Shown here: positions 3,580-30,409 of the stretch, one piece after another
Layout: every line of letters starts with the position of its first letter
How positions within the stretch are numbered: the stretch's first letter is position 1
Virus record (IMG/VR): IMGVR_UViG_3300030012_004552
Span: 1-31,894 of that record
Length of the DNA stretch: 31,894 nt
DNA from: a virus
Direction: 5' to 3' (one strand)
Notes under the pieces: model-generated
Databases searched by the model: none
Seen by the model: only the letters and a program-made list of their open reading frames with translations
Told to the model about the DNA's origin: nothing
Made by a program: the position numbers and the translations under genes

Positions 3580-3597
3580 GCATAAGTATTTATAAGC
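3580..3597 (-). promoter_or_regulatory. TATAAATACTTATGC motif, candidate late promoter upstream of TerS
   Basis: The minus strand reads TATAAATACTTATGC at 3594-3580, about 117 nt before TerS. It equals the T4-type late -10 element (TATAAATA) by sequence. A near-perfect copy (TATAAAAACTTATGC) lies at 4638-4624 and a related palindrome at 26150-26135. The core ATAAATA recurs on the minus strand at several late-gene boundaries. No T4 gp55-like factor was seen, so promoter function is inference. Confidence 0.4.
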
Positions 3598-3618: not shown

Positions 3619-4134
3619 ATGAATCTAAATGAATATGTAATGGTGCTACCCATAGCAAACGCAAGAGTATGCAAAGAACTTATTAATCAATACAACACAG
3701 ACAACTTACATGAAGCCACAAGTGCTACAGCAACAGGCAACAAAGTGGTTGAAACGCATAGAAAATGCGACACAGTTGGTATTAATGACCAGCGTGTGGA
3801 TGACATTGTGTGGGAAGCACATGATGAATACAGAAGAAGACACCCATTGATGTACTGCAAAACACAAACAGAATCACAGTTTTTACGCTACGGACCAGGT
3901 GGTAAATTTGAGGAACATGTTGATACATACAGTTCAGCACCACGCACAATTAGTGTTTCTATTATATTAAATGATGATTACACAGGTGGAGAGTTTATGT
4001 TTTTTAACAAGGAACTTATTATCAAACCCACAGTAGGTGATGTTATTATGTTTCCATCAAACTTTATGTTTCCACACGGTGTTATGCCTGTAAAGTTTGG
4101 CACAAGATTTGCTGTAGTAAATTGGCTTAATTAG
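3619..4134 (+). CDS. 2OG-Fe(II) oxygenase, prolyl-4-hydroxylase-like
   Basis: A 171-aa single-domain dioxygenase that should use Fe(II), O2 and 2-oxoglutarate to hydroxylate a substrate. The double-stranded beta-helix motif is complete: H100-x-D102 in FEEHVD, distal H153 in FPHGV and R163 in GTRFAVVNW for 2OG binding, preceded by FLRYGPGGKF as in P4H-like members. Such genes are common in marine phages, where their substrates (protein, nucleic acid or other) are mostly unknown. GAGG lies 8 nt before ATG 3619. The gene is divergent from TerS and its stop overlaps by a few bases the stop of the opposing 75-aa gene. A 14-codon ORF with its own AGGAG site (3551-3595) precedes it and might be a leader peptide. 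Confidence 0.88.
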   Translation: MNLNEYVMVLPIANARVCKELINQYNTDNLHEATSATATGNKVVETHRKCDTVGINDQRVDDIVWEAHDEYRRRHPLMYCKTQTESQFLRYGPGGKFEEHVDTYSSAPRTISVSIILNDDYTGGEFMFFNKELIIKPTVGDVIMFPSNFMFPHGVMPVKFGTRFAVVNWLN

Positions 4135-4716: not shown

Positions 4717-4792
<76 letters not shown>

Positions 4793-4822: not shown

Positions 4823-4984
4823 ATCAATTATTGATCATTAAAACCCAATAGAACTAACAATAATATGCTAAACAGGTACATTTGTAACAAAGGCTTTCAC
4901 CCAAAAAACACAGCAAATACAACAAAAAACAAGCAAACAAGCCATATATTGATAGTTTACTCTTGCAATGTTTTGTTATAGACT

Positions 4985-5003
4985 TTACACATATTTTACA
5001 CAT
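4985..5003 (+). repeat. Pair of TTACACAT direct repeats, candidate integrase arm sites (right pair)
   Basis: TTACACAT at 4985-4992 and 4996-5003, again 11 bp apart, overlapping the integrase start codon (ATG 5002). Binding by integrase here could also repress its own gene. The stretch between the two pairs (4823-4984) is AT-rich and holds no credible ORF. Confidence 0.5.
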
Positions 5004-6165
5004 GAAGAAACACACAATTAGAGATGGCGCCATTACATTGCATTTGAGAGAAAATAGCGATAAATGGCAGGTATACATCAACCTAAAAGGCGAACGCCCT
5101 ATTAGGCAAAGCACAGGCACCAGCAACTTAGATGAAGCCAAACAATTTGCATCCAACTTGTATGATGAAAGTCGCTACAAACAAAAACAAGGCATAGCGA
5201 TTCGCACATATGGTTTTACTGCTGTTGCAGACATGTACATCAAAGACTTGGCCAGCAACAAGGACAACAGCATATCAGCATATCGCAAACACAGGACCAA
5301 CACTGGCCATATTGAAAGATACTTGAAGCCATTTTTTAAGGACAAAAGCATCAATGAATTTCAAATCAAACACATCACAGATTACAAGCGTTGGCGTAAA
5401 ACAAACTATCTAAAAACAGTGCCCAGCGACAACACCATTAGGTTAGAACTAAATGCACTTGCACAGGTGTTTAAGACAGCAGTCAATAATGGCATGTGCT
5501 TACAAGCAGAAGTGCCTAGTATTAGTGCCCCAACTGCAAAAAATCGCAGACCAGACTTTCAAAAACAAGAGATACCTATTATCAAAGACAAACTGCAAGA
5601 ATACATAGACACAGCACCAGATGATAGAATACGCAACAGGCGTATTGATTTAAGAGACTATGTACTACTGCAATTGCATATTGGTTGTAGAAATGAAGAA
5701 CTGCTGAACTTGGGTGCAAAGCATTTAGAAAAATTTATAGTTAGTGGCCAGCAATGTTATATTGCAACCATAGATGGCAAAACGAATCAACGCCGTGTGT
5801 TTGTAGATGCTTTTGCTACAGACATTATCAACAAGCGTGTGCAAAGACACAACGACAAGTTGCACAATAGATTGTGGCAGGTTGTAGACTTTAGCAATAT
5901 ATTTGGCAATTGGATTCGTTGGAGTGGCTTAGAATACAACGCCAACAATGAAAAGCGTACCATGTACAGTTTGCGCCATACCTATGCTACACAAAAAATT
6001 ATAGACACCAAAGGTGATTGGGGTGCTGTTGCACTGCAAATGGGTACATCAATTGAGATGTTGCAGAAACACTACAGCCATGTGCTGATAGAAAATCAAG
6101 CACATGTGTTGGATGGTAAGCCGCAGTTGGATACAACTTTTAATAAATTATTTGAGCTCTCGTAA
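5002..6165 (+). CDS. int: Tyrosine recombinase / phage integrase
   Basis: A site-specific recombinase of 387 aa that should insert the phage into, and with a partner excise it from, the host chromosome. The N-terminal arm-binding-like part (about 1-60) is followed by a core-binding SAM-like helical domain (about 70-165) and the catalytic domain. Catalytic residues visible are R230 in HIGCRNEELL, K260 in DGKTNQRR, R325 in YSLRHTYAT and the nucleophile Y358 in KHYSHV. The usual first His of box II is Tyr322 and the LGH His is Thr349 (MGTS), as in a known phage integrase subgroup. The frame opens at 4963, but ATG 5002 (MKKHTIRDG) gives the usual N-terminus. No ribosome binding site precedes it. 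The neighbouring tRNA-Thr is the likely attP locus. Confidence 0.95.
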   Translation: MKKHTIRDGAITLHLRENSDKWQVYINLKGERPIRQSTGTSNLDEAKQFASNLYDESRYKQKQGIAIRTYGFTAVADMYIKDLASNKDNSISAYRKHRTNTGHIERYLKPFFKDKSINEFQIKHITDYKRWRKTNYLKTVPSDNTIRLELNALAQVFKTAVNNGMCLQAEVPSISAPTAKNRRPDFQKQEIPIIKDKLQEYIDTAPDDRIRNRRIDLRDYVLLQLHIGCRNEELLNLGAKHLEKFIVSGQQCYIATIDGKTNQRRVFVDAFATDIINKRVQRHNDKLHNRLWQVVDFSNIFGNWIRWSGLEYNANNEKRTMYSLRHTYATQKIIDTKGDWGAVALQMGTSIEMLQKHYSHVLIENQAHVLDGKPQLDTTFNKLFELS

Positions 6166-6578: not shown

Positions 6579-6694
6579 AGCTCAACTCCTTCTATTACCA
6601 CTATAATGCCAAGTTCAACTGCAAGAATAGTGTGATACACAGTCCATAACACAGACTGTTTTTGTCCATCTATTGATTTATATTTCTTTTTCAT
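6560..6694 (-). CDS. Small single-pass membrane protein, 44 aa
   Basis: A short gene read MKKKYKSIDGQKQSVLWTVY, then a hydrophobic segment (TILAVELGIIVVIEGVELWL) that would span the membrane once, with a positively charged N-terminus. ATG 6694 has AAGGA 8 nt upstream; ATG 6700 is too close to that site. The gene overlaps the glycosyltransferase 3' end by 17 bp and the next gene by 19 bp, a normal phage arrangement. Similar short K-rich one-helix proteins occur in marine phages. A holin-like or glycosyltransferase-partner role is possible but unproven. Confidence 0.7.
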   Translation of the reverse strand: MKKKYKSIDGQKQSVLWTVYHTILAVELGIIVVIEGVELWLSLL

Positions 6695-7568
6695 TTTCAT
6701 CTTCCTTCATTGCAAATAATTTAGATACATCCCCATTGAATGCATAAGTGCCCATGTGCACCAAACTGATGCGTGGGTCCAACCAAATTTTTAATCCAAG
6801 ATTTTGTGCCAATCTTGAAAAATAATAATCTTCTGACAAGTAGCGTCTTGAATCTTTTACAAAACTTAATGCACCTTCGCCTTCTATGCCCGTGTCAAAA
6901 AATGCATAACTGTTTGCAACAACATCAGGGTGTAAATTTTTTACATCATTGTCATATTTCAATTGCGGATATGCCTTTATCATTTTTTCAAACACACTGC
7001 GTTTGATCATCATAAAGCCAGTGGGTGCATCATGTAGTTCTATCAACCCATTTGTCATGTCCATTGTTTCGCTTTTAAAATTTATTGCATAGTTATTGCT
7101 GTGTTTTTCAATCATTCTTGCATCGCATTCGCCACGCTTTACAGCACGGACTACGCTTTCCCAATTGATACCTTTTTTAGGATATGCACCTGTTACTATG
7201 TCAACATCATCACGCATTGAATCCCATAGCATTTTAACTATGTAATCACCTTTGAATCCAATATCAGCATCTATAAAAAGCAAATGCGTTGCTGTTGGTT
7301 GTGCTAGGAACATGCCAACCAAAATATTCCTACCTCGTGTTATTAAACTTTCGTTTGTTATTGTTGATGTGTTTACTTGTATGCCAGCATTACCCAGCAC
7401 ACGCAACGCATCCATCATGCTTTGATAGTACGCATGATAATACATACCCCCAAATGCGGGCGTACATATCTGCACAACTGGTTTGGTCTTGTGCAATTCT
7501 GTTAAGTCCATTGTAATTGGACGGTTAAGTTCGTTTTGAAATTCATCAAATTTTTTTTGTGTGTCCAT
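6678..7568 (-). CDS. Phage-type glycosyltransferase (GT-A fold)
   Basis: A 296-aa protein resembling the short GT-A glycosyltransferases of marine phages, which transfer a sugar from a nucleotide-sugar donor. Visible are an N-terminal ICTPAFGGMY strand-loop (34-43), the TITNESLITRGRN region (69-81), the metal-binding DAD motif at 100-102 in LLFIDADIGF, and YPKKGINW (129-136), which together are characteristic. No signal peptide or membrane segment, so it is cytoplasmic. ATG 7568 lies only five bases past an ATAAATA motif, with no ribosome binding site, so the message may be leaderless. It leads a four-gene minus unit. The substrate is unknown: virion protein, DNA or host surface glycan are all possible. 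Confidence 0.85.
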   Translation of the reverse strand: MDTQKKFDEFQNELNRPITMDLTELHKTKPVVQICTPAFGGMYYHAYYQSMMDALRVLGNAGIQVNTSTITNESLITRGRNILVGMFLAQPTATHLLFIDADIGFKGDYIVKMLWDSMRDDVDIVTGAYPKKGINWESVVRAVKRGECDARMIEKHSNNYAINFKSETMDMTNGLIELHDAPTGFMMIKRSVFEKMIKAYPQLKYDNDVKNLHPDVVANSYAFFDTGIEGEGALSFVKDSRRYLSEDYYFSRLAQNLGLKIWLDPRISLVHMGTYAFNGDVSKLFAMKEDENEKEI

Positions 7569-7617: not shown

Positions 7618-8160
7618 ATGGCTAAAATTACATATTATACATCTGCAAAACAATTAGACGACTCTTGCAAGTCAGGGTTCGCTGGCAGAATGACTACATT
7701 TGAAACTTGCGGAATAGACAAGACACAAACAGAAAACAAACAACCAATTGAAGCAACCACAATTGAATTACCAACAACGGATATACATTTGGCAGAAATG
7801 GTTGCTGTGCAATCTGCATTGGAACATGCAATCAGTTTGGGTGCATCATCTGGCACAAGATTAAGTGTGTGGTGCGATAATGACGGCGTTGTAACAAAAA
7901 TACACAACGACATGGCAGACAGACAAGACAACTTTGACGGTGTTACTGATGAAGTTGTACAAACAATTCGTTTGCATTTAAAAAGATTAGGTCGCAAAAA
8001 AGGATGGCCTATTGTGCAAACACGCACAAACACTAATTCAATTTCAAAAGAAATTACAGAAGCAGTTGGAGGAGAAACACAACAACAGGACAAACCTGTG
8101 ATGGAAGATCCTTTAACTATTGTTGCAAAATTGCGTGAGGCTAATAAGAAGAAAGTTTAG
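7618..8160 (+). CDS. Possible RNase H-fold protein, 180 aa
   Basis: The central part has the order expected of an RNase H-like domain: E60 on a helix (HLAEMVAVQSALEHA), then a strand with D87/D89 (SVWCDNDGVVTKI), then a helical region and a late NSISKE helix. The usual first catalytic Asp (DGS-type) is not clear; the N-terminus has YYTSAKQLDDS instead, so it may be inactive or use D14/D15. The family assignment is tentative. AAAGG lies 9-10 nt before ATG 7618. It is divergent from the glycosyltransferase (49-bp gap) and convergent with the 182-aa gene (20-bp overlap). If active it could process RNA primers, which would matter in a phage without other replication genes. Confidence 0.8.
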   Translation: MAKITYYTSAKQLDDSCKSGFAGRMTTFETCGIDKTQTENKQPIEATTIELPTTDIHLAEMVAVQSALEHAISLGASSGTRLSVWCDNDGVVTKIHNDMADRQDNFDGVTDEVVQTIRLHLKRLGRKKGWPIVQTRTNTNSISKEITEAVGGETQQQDKPVMEDPLTIVAKLREANKKKV

Positions 8161-8689: not shown

Positions 8690-8913
8690 TACAACATTGC
8701 TTGAACTAATAAAACAACAACACTAATTAACACACCTACCAATGTTGAAAATGTCCACCACTGTGTTTTTTTAAGATTGGTAACATCATTTTGTAGATGT
8801 TGTAGGTGGTTGTTGGCAAGTATATCTAATTTTGTTTCTATTTTAGCAACTTGCACTTCTACTAATGTTAATCTATCTGTTTCTTTTTCATTCATTTTTA
8901 AGCCACTTTGCAT
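8689..8913 (-). CDS. Holin-like protein (XhlA-type layout), 74 aa
   Basis: An N-terminal coiled coil (about 15-50, [18 protein letters not shown]) leads into one C-terminal membrane helix (about 51-72, [18 protein letters not shown]). This layout matches the XhlA/hemolysin-like holins, which form or assist membrane lesions at lysis. The gene overlaps the tail fibre 3' end by 16 bp and the next gene by one base. ATG 8913 has a weak GGAA site; ATG 8895 (MNEKET) would give 68 aa and begin just after the fibre stop, and is equally likely. Confidence 0.75.
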
Positions 8914-11900
8914 ATTGTTCCGTTTGTTAAATCTGCGTATGCACTAATGTTACCATCTGCATATGATTGATTTATTTCAAAATTAATTGTGTCATTTACA
9001 GCAAGTTCTTGCACAACATTTACAGTGGCACTACCAAAATTATTACCACTTTCAACATCAGCAACTTGGTCTCTTGCACTTAACACACCACTGCCATTTA
9101 CTTTAATTGTAACGCCAACTTGTCTTTCACCACCACTTGTAGTAAATGTTCCTGTGAAATTTATTTGATATAAACCTGCTTTTGTTACAGTAAATGTACC
9201 ACTGCTGTGGGTGATGTTTGCACTGTTTATAATTGTCATATCAGTTATGTTTGCACTTGCGTTTGTGTTCATATTTGAATTTAGTTTCCAAGTTGCATAT
9301 GATTTGTTTGTTTGAACTAAATCTCCGCCAACTGTTACAGTTTCATTACCTGCATCAACTTTTAACACATCATCGTTAGTGTCACCATGCACCACAAAGT
9401 CAATGTTTGCATTTTTTGGATTGACAACCATTGAGTCACCATTCATGTCACAAACACTCAGTTTGTCTTCTGCACCACTTGGTGTTGCACTAAACTCTAA
9501 TCTTGTTGGATATGATGTTTCTGTCCAATCATCTGTTGCTCTAATATACATGGCCGCTGTTGCCGCCGCAGATTTGTAACTTGTTGGAAAGTTACTAAAG
9601 TCACCATTGTTCCAACCATTGCTACCAATACTACCACCTCCAAAGAAGCCACCCAATATTTGCATGTTTTCTACTGCTGATGGATTTGCATCATCTTTGT
9701 CTTGGTTGTAACGCATAAACCAAACATTACCATAACCTTGTGCATTGGTTACTCTTGTGTCTGTGCCACTGGTTTCACTACCACCACTGTCTAAATGGCT
9801 AAATGCTAATGTAGGCCAGTTTGCGGCGTTTCTTGCATCATCTGTTTTACCATTGATCTGTATACCAGTGTTGTAAAGTAAATCTGTATTAGGTGTGTCT
9901 GTGCCTGCTTCAATTGATTGCACACCATTTAAATGGAATGCTCCACCGCCCCAACCATAACCACTGTATGGTCCGTTGTCACTTGAATCACCTGCACCTG
10001 TTTGGTCTGGTTTGAATACCATGTGTTTGTTGGATGCACGAGTAACTACTTTGATACTTCCATCATCTTCACAATCAATCATTTTTGTGCCGTTGGATTC
10101 AAGTGCTATTCTACCTGCTTCAAAGTGTAGTTCTGGTTCTGATGTTCTTATACCTCTTGTGTTAAGTACATCTCTTGCACTGAATCTTGCAAAACCAATG
10201 TCTGCTAAATCTGATGTTGCGGCTGTGCTGTTAAAATCTGTGTCATATTCAAGTTCAACTGCATTTGTACCAATTGAATTAACTGCTGTTACTGTACCTG
10301 TTACAACACCTGTGGTTGCTGTGCTTGTTGCAAAACTACCACCACTTACACCTTGTAAATAAATTTTTCTGTCTGTTGTGTTTACATCTAATAGTTTACC
10401 TGTAACTGAACCTTGTGTAATTGTTGAACCAGTGTTACCTCTATACGGAACTCCAATGTCAAATGTTGTTCTTGTTTTGGTGCTTTCACCTCTGTCTCTA
10501 ATTTGTATGTTCAATGGTGAATAAATCAAACCAGAACCAATGTTACCACCACCGTGATTTACACCTGAGTATGAACCATCTGTGTCAATTACAAAAGCAA
10601 GATTTTGTTTACCAACATTTGAACCTGTGCCTTGTTGCATAATGATTGCATGATCTTTGCCTGCTGTTGGACCTTGTAATCTTACTGCTCTTGAATCTGA
10701 TGAACTAAATCCACCATAACTGCCAGTTGATGGTGTTACAGTTGTTCCTGTTAATGCATTTGTTTGTGTGTCTAAATCTCCACCAAGTTGTGGTGTTGTG
10801 TCTTCTACGACATTGCTTAAACCACCAGTTGAAATTGTAATATCACCACTGCCTAATAGTGTAGTGCCATTTATTGATTTTATATTTGTGCCACTTACCA
10901 ATGTTGCTTGTGCATCAGTAATTCCATAACCTGACAGTGTAGTTGGTTTGCTTGACAATGAACCAAATGCACCATCAAATGCATCTGTAATTCCGTAACC
11001 AGATATTGTGGTTGGTTTGCCTGTTAATGAAGCAAATGATTGTGCTGGTACACTTGTTAAGTATCCTGCTACACTGTGGTCACCCCAACCATATGCTGTA
11101 TTCCATTGTCCAACATTTGTGTCAGAAATAATATTAGCACCCATATCAATTTCATGACCATTGGCGTCAAGTTGTCCGCCAAGTTGTGGTGATGTGTCAT
11201 CAACTAAACCTGTTAATCCACCTGTGCTTATTGTTGTGTTTATTAATTGTCCACTGCTATTAAATTGTAAAACTTGTCCGCCAGTTGGTGATGATAATAT
11301 TACATCACCTAGGTCATTTATGTTTAAACCATGTGATGTAAATGTTGCTTCACCACCTGACATTTTTAAAAATTCTCCATCACTGCCTTTTCCTGTTGGA
11401 AATTCTAACCATGTGTCTGGATTTTCATCGTCACTACCAAAAATAATTTTACTTCCTACACCACCAGCAACTATGTGTATGTCACCATCAGCAATCAATT
11501 CAATTGCACTAGGATACACACCCATTGCAGTTGATGTTGTTGTGTTTGTTAATGTGTCACTGCTGTTGGTTGTAAATGTGCCTGTAATGTTGCTTAATAA
11601 AAATCCTTTTATTGTACCTGGATAAACTTTCCAAACTTTACCAGTTGCACCACTGTTTGTTTGTGTAACAGTGTCACCAACGCTTGGTGTTGTGTAACTA
11701 TTATTTGATAAATTTGTTTTAATATATCTTGTTGCAGATGTACTACTGCCAGCTCTATCAAATAAATGTATGTAAGAACCACTGGTGCTTACGCTTGACG
11801 CAAGTGTTAATGCAGAAGCATTGTTCCAATTAGTAGTATCAATTTGTCCATGCAATCTGTTGTACGGACCACCAATACCAACTTCTACTTTTTCATCATG

Positions 11901-13199
11901 TAATCTAATACCATAGTCTGGCACTGTATTGTTGTTAACAATTTTAAATCCATCTACATCCAAATCACCAATCAAAGTTGTAGCGGCAGTACCACTTGTT
12001 ACTTGCCATTCATTTGCAGATGCATTGTATTTTAAGAATTGATCATTTGTTACACCAGTTGTGTTAACATCTGCTAAATCATTAATGTTCATTGTGCCTA
12101 CTTTTGTAGCCACTCTTGCATCTGTGTAGTATAAATTTGTTGAACCTTCTGCAACATTATCTGTGTTTTTGGTTGCTAATCTTGTGTCAAAGTCTGTGTT
12201 AGCTCTTGCACTTGTGTAATATAAATTTGAACCTGTAGTTAATCCTTCTGGTAAATCGTCAGTTGTTTTGCCATTTATATATTTGTTTGTGCTACCTTCT
12301 GTTAAATCGTCTGTTGTTTTTGTTGCAAGCCTTGTGTCAAAATCTGTGTTAGAAAAATTGTTGTCATCAGCAATGGCCCATTGTGCACCGTTGTATTTTA
12401 ATATTTTACCATTTGCTACACCTGTGGTGTCAACATCTGTCAAATCATTTAATGATGATGCTGTTGTAGATGCTGTTACATTACCACTGCTATCAAATGC
12501 CAAATATTTGTTTGATCTGTTTGCAACTGTTGGTAATGTCAATGACACACTCAATTCACCATTTGCATGAAAATTAGTTGAATCTTCCACAGCAACTCTG
12601 ATTGCTTCATCTCTAAATTTTTTGTTGTCTCTTGCGGCAATGTTTAAGTTGTCAAATTCTTCATTAAATGTTGCGGCACTAATTACACCACCATTTGAAA
12701 AGTCTGTTGTTCTGCTTGGTGTTCTGTTGCTGATTATAAAAATAGATCCGCTCAATGGTGGATCTCTAAATGCAACTGTGCCTGTAGATGATGTGCCGTC
12801 TGTGGTATCATTTATTTCATACACTGTTGCATTACTACCACCTTGAAAAGTAACAGAAGGGGAAGTGGTGTAACCTGTGCCGCCATTGGTAACTGTGATA
12901 GATGTTACTGCACCTCCACTTATTGTTGCCGTTGCTGTTGCACCAGAACCACCGCCCCCTATCAACGATACTGTTGGTGCTATTGTGTAATTGGTGCCTC
13001 CTGTGCCAACTGCAATGCTTGTTACAGCGCCTGCGGCTACTGTTGCAATTGCTGTTGCTTTTGTGCCCAATGTTTGTAGCGTGGTATCGTTGTAAACTTG
13101 TATGTCATTCTTATCCATTATTTCAAAATTAAATGGAAAGTCTGTAGTACCGCCATTTGCGGTGTATTTTATGCGTGGTGTTGTGTTTGAAACTGCCAT
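8898..13199 (-). CDS. Tail fibre (T7 gp17-type N-terminus), 1433 aa
   Basis: The receptor-binding fibre. The first about 190 residues carry the T7 gp17-like attachment domain ([51 protein letters not shown]). This domain is interrupted at about 45-125 by two glycine-rich repeats of the type [13 protein letters not shown], normally found in other surface proteins. The shaft has repeats with YYTSAR/YYTDAR (about 310-380), [18 protein letters not shown], and [11 protein letters not shown] plus [13 protein letters not shown] (about 690-770). The last about 130 residues ([33 protein letters not shown]) resemble a C1q/TNF-like jelly roll. The start is ATG 13199 with GAGGA upstream. No intramolecular chaperone domain is seen. 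The fibre is more than twice the T7 length (553 aa), typical of marine podoviruses. Confidence 0.93.
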
Positions 13200-24322: not shown

Positions 24323-25204
24323 TTACTCAGTTACATCAATCTGCACTAAGCCTGCAGTGTCAATAACTGCACAACCTTGTGTAAATTCTGCTGTAACTAG
24401 GTTAGCAACTTTTTGTGGGACATAATCAAATCTTGATGTAATGTCCTTACCAATTGCACAACCAATTGAGTCACGATCAAATGCATAACAAGCTCTGCTT
24501 GATGACGCACCTGTGTTTGTTAACAAGTTAGAAACAACAATGTTGAAACCCATTACATTTGGAATGAAACCAGTTTGTAAACCTTGGTTAGCAACATAGT
24601 CTGATGATACAAGTGTTGTATCACTTAATAAGTCTGTTAACGCCGCTGGTGAAATAACAAGCATTCTGTTGTCACCCATTGGAATTGATTGATCGTTTAA
24701 TGCTTCCGCCGCCTCAATTAATTTGGCTTTGTTTAAGCCTGAACCCGCTGTTACAGTTGTACCTGGTGTTGCCGCGTCCATAGTTGCGATAAGTTCATTA
24801 TCGTAAGCTCTGTTAAGAGCGGCCGCAATCGCACCTTGGTATGATTGTCTGTAATCAACATTCGTTCTTAATTGGTCGATGTCTTCAATGTATTCACCAG
24901 TAACAAATGAGTTCATAGTTGCTGTCACAACTGCGTGTGCCGCCGTGCCACCTGTGTATGAATCACCGTGTGTTGGTGCTGAGAATGATGCAGAATCACT
25001 CATTGGTAAAATATCTGCGTTTCTCAATTTGTTTTTTGTGTATCCACCTTTGCCTAGTGTGTGAAATTTATACTGAGATCCAACAACACCACGCACAGTT
25101 CTAACTGCACCTTGTAATTTAGATGCTTTTTGTTGTGCTAGATGAGTAACATCTTCAGACCACATTTGGATAAATGCATTGGATACTGTTCCGCCTACTG
25201 CCAT
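24323..25204 (-). CDS. Major capsid protein, 293 aa
   Basis: The main head protein. It has the general layout of HK97-fold podovirus capsids: an N-terminal arm (VTHLAQQKASKLQGAV), a region like the E-loop/P-domain helix (RQSYQGAIAAALNRAYDNELI) and a late domain with MLVISPAALTDLL and a FIPNVMGFNIVVSN strand. It lies downstream of scaffold in the minus series (with an inserted plus-strand island) and directly before gp11/gp12-like genes, as in T7. AAGGAG lies about 9-10 nt before ATG 25204. Codon use shows more alternative codons (for example GCC/GTT) than its neighbours, as expected of a highly expressed gene. Confidence 0.92.
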   Translation of the reverse strand: MAVGGTVSNAFIQMWSEDVTHLAQQKASKLQGAVRTVRGVVGSQYKFHTLGKGGYTKNKLRNADILPMSDSASFSAPTHGDSYTGGTAAHAVVTATMNSFVTGEYIEDIDQLRTNVDYRQSYQGAIAAALNRAYDNELIATMDAATPGTTVTAGSGLNKAKLIEAAEALNDQSIPMGDNRMLVISPAALTDLLSDTTLVSSDYVANQGLQTGFIPNVMGFNIVVSNLLTNTGASSSRACYAFDRDSIGCAIGKDITSRFDYVPQKVANLVTAEFTQGCAVIDTAGLVQIDVTE

Positions 25205-25391: not shown

Positions 25392-25634
25392 TTACCAGTT
25401 TTTGCAACTCCAATATCGTGCCGTCATTTTGTTTTTGGCAGTGGCGCATTTGTGCCTTGCCCTAAATGACTTCCTTGCTTTGGGATTTGATTTTCGTATC
25501 TTCATGTTGGGATCACCAAAACGAATTGTTTTGATGTTGCCCGTTTTGGGATTTTTTACATACACTTTAAATTTTTTGGGTCCACCACTGGTCCTAATAG
25601 GTTTGTTGAGTGGTCCTTTTTTCTTTGCCGCCAT
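25392..25634 (-). CDS. Small conserved basic marine-phage protein, 80 aa
   Basis: A very basic protein with a recognisable conserved core: PLNKPIRTSGGPKKFKVYVK at the start, FGDPNMKIRKSNPKARKSF in the middle and RARHKC...ARYWSCKNW at the end, including two Cys (62 and 77 region) and paired Trp. Near-identical patterns occur in many marine phages, usually near capsid or portal genes. I recall them as unannotated; a nucleic-acid-binding or head-associated role is inferred from charge and position. AAAGGAT lies 5 nt before ATG 25634. It follows the 56-aa gene and precedes the capsid leader. Confidence 0.88.
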   Translation of the reverse strand: MAAKKKGPLNKPIRTSGGPKKFKVYVKNPKTGNIKTIRFGDPNMKIRKSNPKARKSFRARHKCATAKNKMTARYWSCKNW

Positions 25635-25637
25635 GTG

Positions 25638-25808
25638 TTATCCTTTGTATGCAGTCTTGGCCGCTCTACGCACAGCGGCTTTGGTTACAAAACCCTTTTT
25701 GCCACGCTTGATTGGTTTCTTGCCCGCGGCTTTGCGTTTGTTTGCGTAGTAGTACAATCCTTTGCGGGCTGTCCTGCCGTCTTTGGTCTTGTGGGTCTTT
25801 GCGGCCAT
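25638..25808 (-). CDS. Lys/Arg-rich small protein, 56 aa
   Basis: A 56-aa protein (starts MAAKTHKTKDGRTARKGLYY, ends AAKTAYKG) with about one third Lys plus Arg. The KDGRTARKGLYYY block and the KKPIKRGKKGF block look like conserved features rather than noise. It sits in the minus unit 32 aa, 56 aa, 80 aa, capsid, with three bases between its stop and the next ATG. No Shine-Dalgarno is obvious, so it may be translated by coupling from the 32-aa gene, whose stop lies three bases upstream. Probably binds nucleic acid or sits in the head; function unknown. Confidence 0.8.
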   Translation of the reverse strand: MAAKTHKTKDGRTARKGLYYYANKRKAAGKKPIKRGKKGFVTKAAVRRAAKTAYKG

Positions 25809-25811
25809 AAC

Positions 25812-25910
25812 TTACTTACCGTAACCCTTCATTTTGTATTTGCCTTTAGATTTTTTTGTCTTCTTTGATTTTTTAGTTTTCTTTGAGTATGATTTTTTTC
25901 CGTATGCCAT
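25812..25910 (-). CDS. Very short Lys-rich protein, 32 aa
   Basis: A 32-codon ORF, MAYGKKSYSKKTKKSK at its start and YKMKGYGK at its end, about half Lys. A good AAGGAG lies 7 nt before ATG 25910, which makes it likely to be translated. It is the first gene of the capsid-proximal minus unit. Comparable Lys-rich mini-proteins with MAYGKK-like starts accompany capsid genes in marine phages. The promoter for the unit should lie in 25911-26163, a 253-bp non-coding divergent region in which I see no clear -35/-10 pair. Confidence 0.68.
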   Translation of the reverse strand: MAYGKKSYSKKTKKSKKTKKSKGKYKMKGYGK

Positions 25911-26134
25911 TTTGTTTCTCCTTGTGTTTGGTACTGTGCAACTGCCAACATTACTGTTGTGTACATCCGCGGCCCAGTGCTTTGAATAGACCCTAATTGG
26001 ATGTGCAACACCAATTCCGTTGCAAGTTCAGACTCCGTAGTTACACACAGTACTGAATGCCAAACACATGATTAATGTTACAGTTGTGCTAGTGAGGGTA
26101 TCAGCGCCTAACTGTGCAAACCATTTCCTGTTTA

Positions 26135-26150
26135 GCATAAGTATTTATGC
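26135..26150. promoter_or_regulatory. GCATAA-GTAT-TTATGC palindrome with ATAAATA core
   Basis: A 6-bp inverted repeat with 4-nt centre. On the minus strand it reads GCATAAATACTTATGC, sharing 13 of 15 bases with the motif at 3594-3580. It lies 13 nt before the HNH start (plus) and 225 nt before the Lys-rich capsid-proximal genes (minus), so it could serve either direction. Confidence 0.4.
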
Positions 26151-26163
26151 AGAGAGAGGCACC

Positions 26164-26508
26164 GTGACACAACGCAATCCCAATATTTCAAAATGGACAC
26201 CACGATTGTTCCGTGCAAATTGTACAGTGGATCAACACGGTTGTTGGATATGGCAACGCACAAGGACCACACAAGGCTACGGTGTACTGCACCATAAAAA
26301 ACGCAGATGGTTGGCGCACCGTTTCGCAGTGTTGCTGTATGGTAAATGTTCACTGGCTAAACTAGAAAGAAATGTAGTGTTACACGCATGTGATAGGGGT
26401 ACGCAAGGTTGTGTTAACCCCAAACATTTAAATGTGGGCACACAGTGGGACAATGTGCAGGACTGTCGTTTGAAGCGTAGATACCGCCACCCCAAACAAA
26501 AGGATTAA
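26164..26508 (+). CDS. HNH endonuclease (HNH_3-like), 114 aa
   Basis: A small free-standing HNH nuclease that nicks or cuts DNA. Key pattern: CWIW (27-30), GYG (38-40), AHRFAVLLYG (51-60), VVLHACD with catalytic H74, CVNPKHL with N85 and H88, then GTQWDN..D (92-100). GTG 26164 is chosen because AGAGAGG precedes it by 4-5 nt and homologues start near here; an in-frame ATG at 26068 would add 32 unlike residues and cross a palindrome. It may be a homing endonuclease spreading itself, or help packaging, as HNH proteins do in some phages; distance from terminase favours homing. It begins the plus-strand island. Confidence 0.88.
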   Translation: MTQRNPNISKWTPRLFRANCTVDQHGCWIWQRTRTTQGYGVLHHKKRRWLAHRFAVLLYGKCSLAKLERNVVLHACDRGTQGCVNPKHLNVGTQWDNVQDCRLKRRYRHPKQKD

Positions 26509-26516
26509 ATACATAC

Positions 26517-26708
26517 ATGACACACTGCATACAGTTCGTAAACTTGACAGATGCTGAAGCGGCACGGTTCATACGCTGGTGCTCAAAAGTGTGTTTCCAC
26601 AAATATGATGTTGACTATGTGAATGGTGAATATCACTTTCGTTTCTATGACAGAATGGATGCAGACAGATTTGTGTTGTGCCATCGCGATTTTTTAGAGG
26701 CTTTATAG
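26517..26708 (+). CDS. Small hypothetical protein, 63 aa
   Basis: A 63-aa protein, rich in Asp, Phe, Cys and His, with three Cys (4, 22, 26) plus Cys55. It follows the HNH gene after 8 bp and has AAGGA about 10-11 nt before ATG 26517, so it is probably co-transcribed. The pattern DAEAARFIRWCSK, YHFRFYDRMDADRFVL suggests a small alpha/beta fold (strand, helix, two strands, helix). No family recognised. It ends just before a hairpin (26729-26752). Confidence 0.65.
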   Translation: MTHCIQFVNLTDAEAARFIRWCSKVCFHKYDVDYVNGEYHFRFYDRMDADRFVLCHRDFLEAL

Positions 26709-26728
26709 AAAATGGTGGCCGTTTTAAA

Positions 26729-26752
26729 TTTGTGTAGCCGCGTGTACACAAA
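26729..26752. other. Hairpin after the 63-aa gene
   Basis: TTTGTGTA (26729-26736) pairs with TACACAAA (26745-26752), an 8-bp stem with a G/C-rich 8-nt loop, 20 nt past the 63-aa gene stop. It could end the HNH/63-aa message, but no U-tract follows on the plus strand. Confidence 0.4.
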
Positions 26753-26755
26753 ACT

Positions 26756-26774
26756 AAAAAAGGGGTGGCCACCC
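26756..26774 (-). terminator. Intrinsic terminator facing leftward transcription
   Basis: On the minus strand GGGT-GGCC-ACCC (26774-26763) plus a C is followed at once by six T (26761-26756), a short intrinsic terminator. It would stop leftward (late) read-through from the scaffold side before it reaches the capsid unit, or antisense transcripts across the plus island. The stem is short (4 bp, G/C-only core), so strength is uncertain. Confidence 0.5.
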
Positions 26775-27193
26775 TGTAAAAAACAACCACTATATGCCAA
26801 AATCCTGTAACCTTGGCCAATCCAGTTTAGTACAAGCAAACAAGGTCAACAGATTTTCTCTGTAGTATCAATGACTTACATCGCCACCGTGGCCAACCGT
26901 GTAACAAATGTGTAAACAGAGTATCCAGTTTTACCAGCACGGGCTGAAACAGAATCCAGTTTTGGTAGCAAGGGCTGAAACACACCACCGTCCAACACGC
27001 TGAGATTGAAGCGTTCATCACGGTGAACTACGGTGGAATCGCACGGTGAAGCAGAGTGATGTACAATGATGCCTCTTTTATAGGTGAGCGTGTATCACAA
27101 TCACGGGAGCTGTGCGTTTAGTTAATAAAGCACAATGTTATCCAAAATAATCCACCATTCACCATTGTCCAACGCACACACAGACTTTAATAT
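26775..27193. other. Non-coding repeat-rich stretch, candidate origin or operator region
   Basis: I see no credible gene here. It holds two 29-bp direct repeats (26923-26982) and five copies of ACGGTG or its complement CACCGT within 165 bp (26885, 26986, 27020, 27030, 27043), two of them as CACGGTGAA (27019, 27042). There is one DnaA-box-like TTATCCAAA (27138-27146, one mismatch to TTATCCACA) followed by TAATCCACC. Clustered short repeats beside the early promoter fit a replication origin or a repressor-operator array; neither is proven. Confidence 0.4.
26923..26982 (+). repeat. Two tandem 29-bp direct repeats (31-bp period)
   Basis: Copies at 26923-26951 and 26954-26982 both begin ATCCAGTTTT and end GGGCTGAAACA; 25 of 29 bases agree. 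The end part, GGCTGAAACACAC, recurs exactly at 29139-29151 in the other non-coding stretch. The 31-bp period is about three helical turns. Confidence 0.85.
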
Positions 27194-27349
27194 GTGAAAG
27201 TGAAACAGCGTTCAAAACACAAGCGTTCTAAATTGGACAGCAAGTATAGACAGCAAGAGTGTAAGCGAGAGGAATATGCAGTGGCCAGAATTATGTCACA
27301 ACTACAAGCAGTTTCAGAAAAATCCTCTTTAGTCAAGAAAAAAGATTGA
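27194..27349 (+). CDS. Possible small basic protein, 51 aa (GTG start)
   Basis: A frame from GTG 27194 reads VKVKQRSKHKRSKLDSKYRQ at its start and ends AVSEKSSLVKKKD. The composition is protein-like (basic helical, one Cys). No Shine-Dalgarno precedes it and an in-frame stop lies just upstream, so it could be a real short gene, a remnant, or chance. Its TGA (27347-27349) sits inside the -35 box of the early promoter, so if transcribed from further left it would read into that promoter. Confidence 0.35.
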   Translation: MKVKQRSKHKRSKLDSKYRQQECKREEYAVARIMSQLQAVSEKSSLVKKKD

Positions 27350-27374
27350 CAACAACACACTTTTTTGCTATTAT
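27346..27374 (+). promoter_or_regulatory. Consensus sigma70 promoter of the early operon
   Basis: TTGACA (27346-27351), 17-bp spacer, TATTAT (27369-27374). This is a near-perfect host-type promoter, the clearest in the genome, predicting a start near 27381. It would drive the plus genes from 27515 on, before any phage protein exists. The leader (27381-27514) contains AACAGC/GCTGTT complementary segments and CAATTGGAAG. Confidence 0.88.
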
Positions 27375-27514
27375 GTATGTAATTGCTTAAAACAATTGGA
27401 AGGAACAGAACAACAGCGAGAAATGTGCTGTTATCTGTTGGATATTAGCCTTTTCACCAAATACAGCCATTTTTCGCCAAACTAAATACAAATGTAATGA
27501 ACAAGGAGGCGACA

Positions 27515-27880
27515 ATGACAGCGACACTACAACAGCAACAGCATTTAATCAATGTGCTGGCGGAAACACCCAAACAATTCAATTATGACATCCCCGTGTA
27601 TAGGACACAAACAATCACACTTGAACACAAGCTCACAGCAGATGAATTGAAGCAGTGGGCATTAGAACGACACGATTTTGAGCAACAAACCATTGATTAC
27701 TACATACCCACAGCAAAAGAGTGGGAAGATTGGAATCAGCAGTATTTGGACAACTTACAGGACAATCACGCTTGGGCATATTTGGAAGATTGGAACACGG
27801 ATTGGGAACGCACAGCAGATTACGGAGATTGGGAATTGGACGGTGAAATTGACACTTGGACGGACAAGGAGGGTGCGTAA
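27515..27880 (+). CDS. Early hypothetical acidic protein, 121 aa
   Basis: First gene of the early operon, very acidic and Trp/Asp-rich in its second half (NTDWERTADYGDWELDGEID). The frame opens at 27497, but AAGGAGG at 27503-27509 lies 5 nt before ATG 27515 (MTATLQQQQHL), which decides the start. The N-terminal motif QQQQHLINVLAETP is echoed in the next protein (QQQQLVDILSDKP). A strong ribosome site, strong promoter, small size and high acidity are usual for early takeover or DNA-mimic proteins, but no family is recognised and that role is a guess. Confidence 0.85.
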   Translation: MTATLQQQQHLINVLAETPKQFNYDIPVYRTQTITLEHKLTADELKQWALERHDFEQQTIDYYIPTAKEWEDWNQQYLDNLQDNHAWAYLEDWNTDWERTADYGDWELDGEIDTWTDKEGA

Positions 27881-28188
27881 TGACCACACTATTAAAACAA
27901 GCAGTTGAAAACATCAAACAGCAACAGCAATTAGTTGACATATTAAGCGACAAACCCTTGCGTGTAATACCAATTGGACAAGCACAAGCACCAATTAATA
28001 TGATGATTAACGCAGTAGAAGTGAATAGGCTTGCGTGGCGGCAAATGAATGAACAGCAACGCTTGGAACATTTACAGCATCTATTGGAGGAAAAGTACTA
28101 CAAAGCAATTGATGATGCTATTAGAGGATTGAAAACAGAGGATTTTAAATTGGATGTGTATGAATATGAATTGGAAGGGGAAGAATAA
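27880..28188 (+). CDS. Early hypothetical protein, 102 aa (related N-terminus)
   Basis: Begins at ATG 27880, overlapping the previous stop as TAATG, with AAGGAGG 7 nt upstream inside the previous gene. The N-terminal helix (LLKQAVENIKQQQQLVDIL) resembles that of the preceding protein, so the two may be diverged tandem copies. The middle is helical (NRLAWRQMNEQQRLEHLQHLLEE) and the tail acidic (VYEYELEGEE). Function unknown. An in-frame ATG at 27856 is rejected because it lacks a ribosome site. Confidence 0.82.
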   Translation: MTTLLKQAVENIKQQQQLVDILSDKPLRVIPIGQAQAPINMMINAVEVNRLAWRQMNEQQRLEHLQHLLEEKYYKAIDDAIRGLKTEDFKLDVYEYELEGEE

Positions 28189-28255
28189 GTCAAAAAACAC
28201 CTATTTCAGCACGAAAAAATGATGTTTTGCTAAATACTATTGGAGGACGCAAACA

Positions 28256-28813
28256 ATGATACAAATTACAGCACAAGAACACGCATATGACGGCGAACTT
28301 GTCCACGGACAAGACGCAAGTGTTAGAATAGTATGCGATGAAAACAGCAATGTACTACTACATAACACAATTAGAGACGGGTGTTTAGCAGTGGCACACT
28401 ATATTGAAAAGCGTTTTGGAGAAGATGAATTCAAACGCAAACTAAACAAACACCCTTTCAAAAAACAAAAGGGCAAAAGCACACTACAAGAGATAAATTG
28501 GTTTACGCACACTAAAAACAAAGCGTGGAGACAACAGCACGGTTTTGGCAAATATTATACGCACGAAGAATTGATTGATAGTATGCTAAACAAATGTGGC
28601 AAAACAATCAAAAGCACAGGTGGACTACAGCACTATACAAAAGCAATGATAAATCGTTGGAACAGATATATGCGTTATATGAACTTGTTAGAACACAGGG
28701 CATATGAGGGTGCTTTTGACACTTACAAAGTACAAATTAAAACACAACAAACACACAAAGTATTACCCAGTAAAAAAGGACACTTATGTGGAGTGGAGAT
28801 AGCACAATTATGA
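28256..28813 (+). CDS. Early hypothetical basic protein, 185 aa
   Basis: The largest protein of the early operon: an N-terminal beta-like part (MIQITAQEHAYDGELV), then a strongly basic helical region (FKRKLNKHPFKKQKGKS) and a helical core with HYTKAMINRWNRYMRYMNLL. GGAGG lies about 9 nt before ATG 28256. Net positive charge and aromatic/basic pattern suggest nucleic-acid binding. It is a positional candidate for a replication initiator in a genome with no other replication gene, but no known initiator motif is visible and this is speculation. It overlaps the next gene by ATGA. Confidence 0.82.
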   Translation: MIQITAQEHAYDGELVHGQDASVRIVCDENSNVLLHNTIRDGCLAVAHYIEKRFGEDEFKRKLNKHPFKKQKGKSTLQEINWFTHTKNKAWRQQHGFGKYYTHEELIDSMLNKCGKTIKSTGGLQHYTKAMINRWNRYMRYMNLLEHRAYEGAFDTYKVQIKTQQTHKVLPSKKGHLCGVEIAQL

Positions 28814-29070
28814 TACACGAAGTTGATTGGTGCGTGGACAAAGAAAAACACGCAAATGTGGCTGTGCTACGCTTCAAAACAAAAGCAAAACGCAACAAGC
28901 AAGTACCAGCGGATGTACGCAAACAAATGATACAGCGTTATTTACGAGGTGAATTTGGCAAGTGTACATACATAGAAGCAGATATGAACAAGCAAATAGA
29001 TGCTTATATAAAACGCAAAAACATCAAACACACAAACAGAGAATACATCAAACACTTTCTTTTTGGTTGA
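28810..29070 (+). CDS. Early hypothetical basic protein, 86 aa
   Basis: Last gene of the early operon. ATG 28810 overlaps the upstream stop as ATGA, and GGAG motifs lie 11-16 nt before it; an ATG at 28786 would add eight residues and is less likely. The protein is basic (RFKTKAKRNKQVPADVRKQM; YIKRKNIKHTNREYIKHF), mainly helical after residue 30, and could bind nucleic acid. No family recognised. A non-coding, structured stretch follows. Confidence 0.78.
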   Translation: MIHEVDWCVDKEKHANVAVLRFKTKAKRNKQVPADVRKQMIQRYLRGEFGKCTYIEADMNKQIDAYIKRKNIKHTNREYIKHFLFG

Positions 29071-29101
29071 TTTTTTCAATTGGAAGAAAGTATAATATTT
29101 T

Positions 29102-29123
29102 TTTAGGCACACTTTAGGCACAC
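29102..29123 (+). repeat. 11-bp tandem duplication TTTAGGCACAC
   Basis: Two exact head-to-tail copies, 29102-29112 and 29113-29123, one helical turn apart, 31 bp after the last early gene. Same spacing as the TTACACAT pairs at the integrase. Likely a protein-binding site; the protein is unknown. Confidence 0.7.
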
Positions 29124-29448
29124 ACAATTACTGATACAGGCTGAAACACACACTAATATTGGCTATATAGTTTCTCAACAAACACAGCAAAATGCGGTTG
29201 AAATATACAGGTGAATTGCTTGAAACCGTTGGTGTTAGCGTTATTAACACAAAGTCAGCAACGAAACTGCGTAGATGACACGAGGCAGTATAATACAATT
29301 GTTGAAGGTTGGGTTAGGACAAAGCCCTGTTGCTCATGACTTGCGTACAGCAAAAAATACCTTCTGTCTAAAAGGGCAAATGCTTTTTTTATATGACACT
29401 TGCGTACGGTGTCGTATGAGCAAATGATAGATTATAATTCAATTGGAA

Positions 29449-29512
29449 AGTGTTTAATACGAAGCACTGCTTCGTATTATTAGTGCTGTAGCAACGCTAC
29501 AGCCTAAACACT
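29449..29512 (+). other. Three-way-junction RNA/DNA structure
   Basis: An outer pair AGTGTTTA/TAAACACT (29449-29456 with 29505-29512) encloses two perfect hairpins: TAATACGAAG/CTTCGTATTA with a 5-nt loop (29455-29479) and GCTGTAGC/GCTACAGC with a 3-nt loop (29485-29503). Outer and first stem share two bases at 29455-29456, so they compete at the edge. No U-run follows on either strand. Could be a bidirectional terminator pair, a small structured RNA, or a cruciform origin element. Confidence 0.6.
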
Positions 29513-29626
29513 GCTTACAACAATTATCATGAAGTTGATCACAAAAGAAGAAAGGACTGCTATGCCAAACAGCCCTTTCAATCGTAATGTAAAGGAGAGA
29601 CATATATGTCAATGCCTCAAAAATAT

Positions 29627-30409
29627 TTATCCACCCAACTGAGTTAGTTTTTCATACAGGCGATATAATTCAGCTCTTTTTTGGTCGCCAATGGGATCAC
29701 CTTGCGGCAATGACATTTGCGGGCTGTTTCTCAACTCATGTATTTTTTCTCGTATGCTGATTGTGTCTTCAGTTCTTGACTGCGTGTTTACAATTGGATT
29801 AGGCATTTTACCACCATCCATCATGTTGTACAACATTTCAAGTCCATCCGCTGTGTCAGTCAAAGGCATCGTCAGTACATGTGGTGGCAAATTACTAGCA
29901 TATTTTTTTACTGCGGCCAGTTTGCTGTCGTAATCATTACCCCATTTTGTTTTCAAATTTGCGTTCTCTTGTTCTAAGTCAGCACGGACAGGCATTTGTT
30001 TTTGGTATTGTTCATCAATAGCACCCAATTGATCTTTGTACAATGCTACTACACCTTCAATTTGTTTTTGCGACATGTTTAATGTGCGGAACAAATCTTC
30101 TGCTTCTCGTTTTGTGTCTTCATCACCAGTCAAATCCATGTCAAAATTATTGACAAAATCCCAGTTGTACTCTTTGGGTGCTTTGGGTATGTCTGCCAAT
30201 TTCTTTTCAAGTTCAGTGTATGATTTGGCCAAATCTTCTGGTGTTTTGAATTTTTCTGGTAACCAATCATATTGTTGTGCAGACTGATCGTCGGACTGAT
30301 TGTCATTGGTTTTTGGTTGTGTTTCACCTAATAAACCTTGTGTTTCTGTTGCGGCAGTTTCCGTAGTTTCAACTGCTTGTTCTGTTGCTTGTGTGTTTTC
30401 ATCACTCAT
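29627..30409 (-). CDS. Capsid scaffolding protein, 260 aa
   Basis: T7 gp9-like scaffold that shapes the procapsid and leaves before maturation. The acidic, low-complexity N-terminus (TEQAVETTETAATETQ, QPKTNDNQSDDQ) is followed by YDWLPEKFKTPEDLAKSYTE, the phrase typical of podovirus scaffolds, and a helical C-terminus (REKIHELRNSP, DQKRAELYRLYEKL). It lies downstream of the portal as in T7, but the capsid gene does not follow directly; a plus-strand island intervenes. The start overlaps the Bbp19-like gene by 8 bp. The stop falls in a GGATAAATATTT boundary motif. Confidence 0.92.
   Translation of the reverse strand: MSDENTQATEQAVETTETAATETQGLLGETQPKTNDNQSDDQSAQQYDWLPEKFKTPEDLAKSYTELEKKLADIPKAPKEYNWDFVNNFDMDLTGDEDTKREAEDLFRTLNMSQKQIEGVVALYKDQLGAIDEQYQKQMPVRADLEQENANLKTKWGNDYDSKLAAVKKYASNLPPHVLTMPLTDTADGLEMLYNMMDGGKMPNPIVNTQSRTEDTISIREKIHELRNSPQMSLPQGDPIGDQKRAELYRLYEKLTQLGG

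Follow-up and report, generated by a model that had tools for sequence, protein, structure and literature searches.

The order of the head genes is one of the most stable traits of tailed phages, and in T7-like phages the scaffold and capsid genes are neighbours running in one direction. The podovirus genome analysed here holds a block of opposite-strand genes between the two, which raises the questions of how its capsid gene is expressed and of what the intervening island does. The window, i.e. the whole stretch of 31,894 bases under analysis, is a contig representing an essentially complete podovirus genome; a 138-base overlap between its two ends, with 2 mismatches, closes it into a circle of about 31,756 bp and makes the portal gene whole. 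The encoded proteins include a capsid protein (PF19821), a head-tail connector (PF12236) and a T7-type terminase, together with tail and virion proteins, tail tubular and internal virion proteins among them, and a tyrosine integrase (phrog_1, 4963-6165). In a scan that covered the window proteins except the tail fiber and some of the smallest ORFs, neither a phage RNA polymerase nor a DNA polymerase or helicase was recognised. With T7-like phages (Autographiviridae) the window shares the T7-type terminase domain and the tail tubular and internal virion proteins, but it has an integrase and its head genes are split by the island. The label "T7-like" of the preliminary description is a loose one, since the scanned proteins include no recognisable phage RNA polymerase. 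Its capsid family, a 32-35 kb genome and the order terL-portal-scaffold-capsid-tail are held in common with HTVC010P, MEP301 and Vibrio phage 1.254; these three, however, keep scaffold and capsid adjacent on one strand, and their capsids are only about 27-32% identical to that of the window. HTVC010P-like traits are present (a Phage_capsid_2 capsid and a podovirus head-tail connector), but the portal tree, in which the outgroup branches are long, places the window outside the HTVC010P group, in a separate group of 43 rows. An open literature library, with many journals outside its coverage, yielded no description of the gene order or of the RNA reported below.

Just upstream of the integrase, here and in the related contig G001, lies a complete tRNA-Thr gene (TGT, 4717-4792), which may be an attachment-site marker or relate to tRNA-dependent lysogeny (PMC10865867). 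A search of bacterial genomes for prophages, made with the capsid alignment, gave none. The tail fiber gene (8898-13199) is large, repetitive and strongly divergent among relatives, the G001 contig ending within its repeats. A 2OG-Fe(II) oxygenase gene and an RNase H-like gene are placed on the plus strand between late units (3619-4134 and 7618-8160), and a 2OG oxygenase gene comes immediately after scaffold in L073, L075, L077 and L088.

Layout of the head genes in the window and its relatives

On the minus strand, g3098, terL, portal, an acetyltransferase-like gene, an 80-aa gene and the scaffold-like gene precede the island; beyond it the same strand continues with a 32-aa basic ORF, two small ORFs, the capsid gene and the tail genes (Table 1). 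The gap from scaffold-like gene to capsid measures 4.4 kb and contains seven plus-strand ORFs, which bears out the initial observation that an opposite-strand region separates the two. The capsid assignment is firm, and the scaffold-like gene is so called from its position and from weak profile matches to phrog_3742 (unknown function) and phrog_458 ("protease").

Table 1. Features of the split head-gene region and associated signals (window coordinates).
Feature	Position	Strand	Basis or remark
Second exact copy of ATAAATACTTATGC, upstream of the g3098-terL unit	3580..3593	-	conserved in G001, G002
Major capsid protein	24323..25204	-	Pfam Phage_capsid_2 E 1.6e-51; phrog_3437 E 6e-48
Two small basic ORFs of the capsid unit	25392..25808	-	
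Opening gene of the capsid unit, a basic 32-aa ORF with Shine-Dalgarno	25812..25910	-	sequence reading
Capsid-unit copy of ATAAATACTTATGC, a candidate late promoter motif	26135..26148	-	
HNH endonuclease	26164..26508	+	phrog_1872, E 2.9e-16; start probably GTG 26164
63-aa island gene	26517..26708	+	homologs, substitution pattern
GGGTGGCCACCC palindrome, leftward T-run	26763..26790	-	invariant in aligned relatives
Small basic ORF where the island DNA is best conserved	27194..27349	+	
Sigma70-like promoter TTGACA-17-TATTAT	27346..27374	+	hexamers invariant in relatives, spacer varies
Island gene, variable among relatives	27497..27880	+	homolog in L025
Island gene, variable among relatives	27880..28188	+	
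185-aa island gene	28256..28813	+	homologs in L057, distantly G011
94-aa island gene	28786..29070	+	
Promoter-like TTGATT-18-TATAAT before the RNA gene	29067..29096	+	
Structured noncoding RNA, core matched by model R3	29164..29384	+	conservation, covariation
Two tandem hairpins inside a closing stem	29449..29512		stems invariant, loops vary
Predicted leftward intrinsic terminator after scaffold	29541..29579	-	12-pair hairpin, T-rich tail
Scaffold-like gene, last of late unit 1	29627..30409	-	position and profile

Both flanks and the island recur in four other contigs (G001, L009, L012 and L013), several of them mutually close and hence not four fully independent genotypes; G001 (32,516 nt, full-length, its ends overlapping within the fiber repeats) has the window gene order. 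The group consists of uncultured marine and estuarine phages, and a portal-based scan yielded 57 loci. Opposite-strand ORFs follow scaffold in L057, L059, L061, L068, L073, L075, L088 and L090, and a split layout with other gene content is found in G002, L057, L073, L075, L088, L090 and others. The G002 contig (terL 78% identical) breaks inside the island, where it carries plus-strand ORFs of different content and an HNH gene. In L077 the junction is long and its ORFs are mostly on the late strand; L071, L081/G011 and L106/G023 have a short one with HNH and the 63-aa gene in late orientation. All 43 ingroup rows of the portal tree fall into a single group (100/100), across much of which opposite-strand genes come after scaffold. 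These cases, L090 excepted, all belong to one 28-row subgroup (99/98), many rows being of unknown junction state because their contigs end early. On this tree the history of the junction would need several changes, the count of gains and losses being unsettled.

The distinct architecture put forward in the preliminary description is thus real, kept in relatives and unusual, the outgroups holding scaffold and capsid side by side. The term "inserted" suits this contrast with the outgroups, but less so the gene content of the junction, which differs among relatives; judged from these comparisons, the junction is a repeatedly used or exchanged site, at which different relatives hold different genes.

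Coding content of the island

Five island ORFs have usable homologs, and in these the changes are mostly silent, at third codon positions, with dN well below dS wherever dS is estimable; they are therefore real genes. The small ORF at 27194..27349 shows an unusually low dS. The homolog of the 185-aa gene in the L057 island is 31% identical, and the distant one in G011 (24% identity, E 2.1e-10) sits outside the head series on the non-late strand, next to an RNase H-like gene. AlphaFold2 models of the 185-aa protein reached a mean pLDDT of 46 with 3 sequences and of 60 with 5; a PDB search returned nothing usable, and matches in a viral library were to uncharacterised proteins only. In L090 the junction island encodes a clamp-loader-like AAA+ ATPase (6693-7289), a protein that belongs here to phages in which no DNA polymerase is recognised.

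The island genes had been described as early, a timing for which their orientation and the sigma70-like promoter speak, and against which stands the heptamer TAAATAC ahead of three of them. Given the orientation, the promoter, the G011 homolog outside the late series and the clamp-loader of L090, the island is probably early and regulatory. Our preferred explanation, which we hold with reasonable confidence, sees the island as a module conserved within the lineage, probably with an early regulatory role, set between two late units that would be transcribed separately. On the other hand, the junction could be a cargo hot spot that the HNH homing endonuclease may hold open, with exchangeable passengers instead of early control genes. 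The variation of its gene content between relatives and the presence of HNH in most of them, in either orientation, would agree with such a site; the promoter, the RNA gene and the 185-aa gene are nonetheless conserved in the window lineage and the L090 island holds a replication-type gene, and we consider this alternative rather unlikely.

Transcription signals around the island

The DNA around the island promoter (26984-27492) is about 84% identical to that of L030. Downstream of the promoter, a conserved leader (27381-27490) can form the hairpin AACAGC...GCTGTT and is a possible antitermination or regulatory leader. For the leftward direction, a terminator had been placed near 26760 in the preliminary description; a site does exist there, the GGGTGGCCACCC palindrome, and its core is conserved, but a stronger one just after scaffold (29579-29541) had gone unlisted. 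The latter is conserved in L030 and L025, where the T-runs are longer, and the palindrome would represent a weak terminator or an operator.

The 14-base motif ATAAATACTTATGC occurs exactly twice in the window, in both cases on the minus strand and once upstream of each late unit; with up to 2 mismatches allowed, 5 matches are found versus 0.61 expected. In L006 the alignment puts an exact copy ahead of the capsid unit, and in L030 and L025 the motif is altered there. A related copy lies ahead of the fiber gene in the window. All eight TAAATAC heptamers of the window stand before or at the start of a correct-strand gene, an enrichment that is weaker in several relatives. As before late genes, the heptamer is found just upstream of three island genes, which may therefore undergo late transcription too. 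That the capsid unit has a promoter of its own, as anticipated within 25911-26163, is likely, the candidate at 26148-26135 falling inside this range. The T4 late promoter is TATAAATA and its cyanophage form NATAAATA (PMC2984593). Like T4 late promoters, the window motif has an ATAAATA core, is devoid of a matching -35 and is located near late genes; unlike in the T4 system, the late sigma, co-activator and sliding clamp find no family match in the scanned window proteins, though remote versions may be present. We take the likeness as a resemblance only.

These control signals fit separate transcription units. As read from the sequence, host RNA polymerase would transcribe the island rightward, at least from 27346-27374, and a second promoter (29067-29096) would make the structured noncoding RNA at the downstream end of the island; late unit 1 (g3098-terL-portal-scaffold) would run leftward and stop just after scaffold, and the capsid-tail unit would restart leftward from its own copy of the motif (26148-26135). 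The TAAATAC heptamers at three island genes, the weak enrichment in several relatives, the failure to recognise a T4-type late sigma and the short junctions with late-orientation genes of L071, G011 and G023 all count against this scheme. Alternatively, one long leftward transcript could make capsid, the terminators leaking and the antisense RNA silencing the island late. Antitermination can override bacterial terminators, and the stem of the one at 26763-26790 is short; the terminator after scaffold is, however, strong and conserved and the capsid unit has its own motif copy, and such read-through appears improbable to us. That the island is an assembly inversion or chimera can be set aside, nothing having been found in its favour beyond 2 mismatches in the 138-base end overlap, and the window order recurring in contigs of several metagenomes at about 60-97% protein identity. 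Overall, the observation made in the preliminary description is confirmed and its interpretation partly supported.

A structured noncoding RNA gene closing the island

The convergent stretch 29071-29626 is structured, as had been noted, but the first reading missed the plus-strand RNA gene inside it. Its transcript probably starts near 29103. The segment 29201-29500 is 80-100% identical to relatives at the DNA level, in contrast with the upstream 185-aa gene, whose synonymous sites are near saturation. Homologs of the RNA were retrieved by DNA pattern in L091, L106, L104 and L107 and by covariance model in G002, with further ones in L127 and L125. In seven sequences, 92% of the cells are paired under the proposed structure versus 33-44% in shifted controls, and compensatory cells number 44 versus at most 5 in controls. 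The RNA is structured, its compensatory base-pair changes exceeding those of controls. Three sequences outside the building of model R3 scored 145, 66 and 61 bits (E below 1e-12, a rough value); 96.6% of their cells are paired and 16 pairs are changed on both sides, in an alignment that was fitted to the structure and favours it. Model R2 was dropped, helix P4 having been lost from its alignment.

Rfam 15 gave no match at gathering score for any member tested, permissive scans returning only chance-level hits, and among GenBank phages the RNA had no match at the DNA level. With the structured phage and marine RNAs already catalogued (Rfam 15; PMC2864571) it shares its structured nature and its occurrence in marine phages; unlike them, it has no Rfam match above threshold. 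Several candidates were rejected: the sole bacterial-genome match to the motif, in Poribacteria (L109), appears to belong to a protein-coding gene; the pattern matches L110-L114, L126, L128 and L131-L136 are coding or repetitive and due to chance; and a weak match in pelagiphage Hodr (E 0.003) overlaps an annotated gene. Readings of the RNA as a group I intron or as RNase P, judged by eye, had no Rfam support.

Among the carriers, L127 has a terminase of a different family (phrog_979), L125 encodes an SbcC-like nuclease subunit and a RusA-like resolvase, and L107 a DNA methyltransferase; with gene contents so different, the RNA crosses phage lineages. TAGGCA repeats precede it in the window (29102-29122), in the podovirus-clade members L030, L025, L041, L091 and L106 and also in L127, and are absent in L104 and L107. 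The RNA gene is located at the island end in the window lineage and beside an RNase H-like gene in G023 and L091. A role in trans during infection would be the likeliest, although we propose it tentatively and at well under even confidence; a function as replication primer is possible, suggested only by the RNase H-like neighbour in those two relatives. It is a balanced call whether the following holds as a whole: that this is an undescribed phage RNA family with a core of about 220 nt, several members having TAGGCA repeats before the core and tandem hairpins after it; that the podovirus clade shares the family with several unrelated lineages and that its RNAs act in trans in infection; and that the capsid operon restarts from a T4-late-like motif without a recognisable T4 late sigma.

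Implications

As a candidate for a new family the RNA is concrete and testable: it covaries across unrelated phages and is searchable in existing metatranscriptomes. As to the head genes, an opposite-strand block kept in a clade suggests that a capsid operon tolerates being split, with a restart after the break, and the split layout provides a natural test of the coordination of scaffold and capsid dosage.
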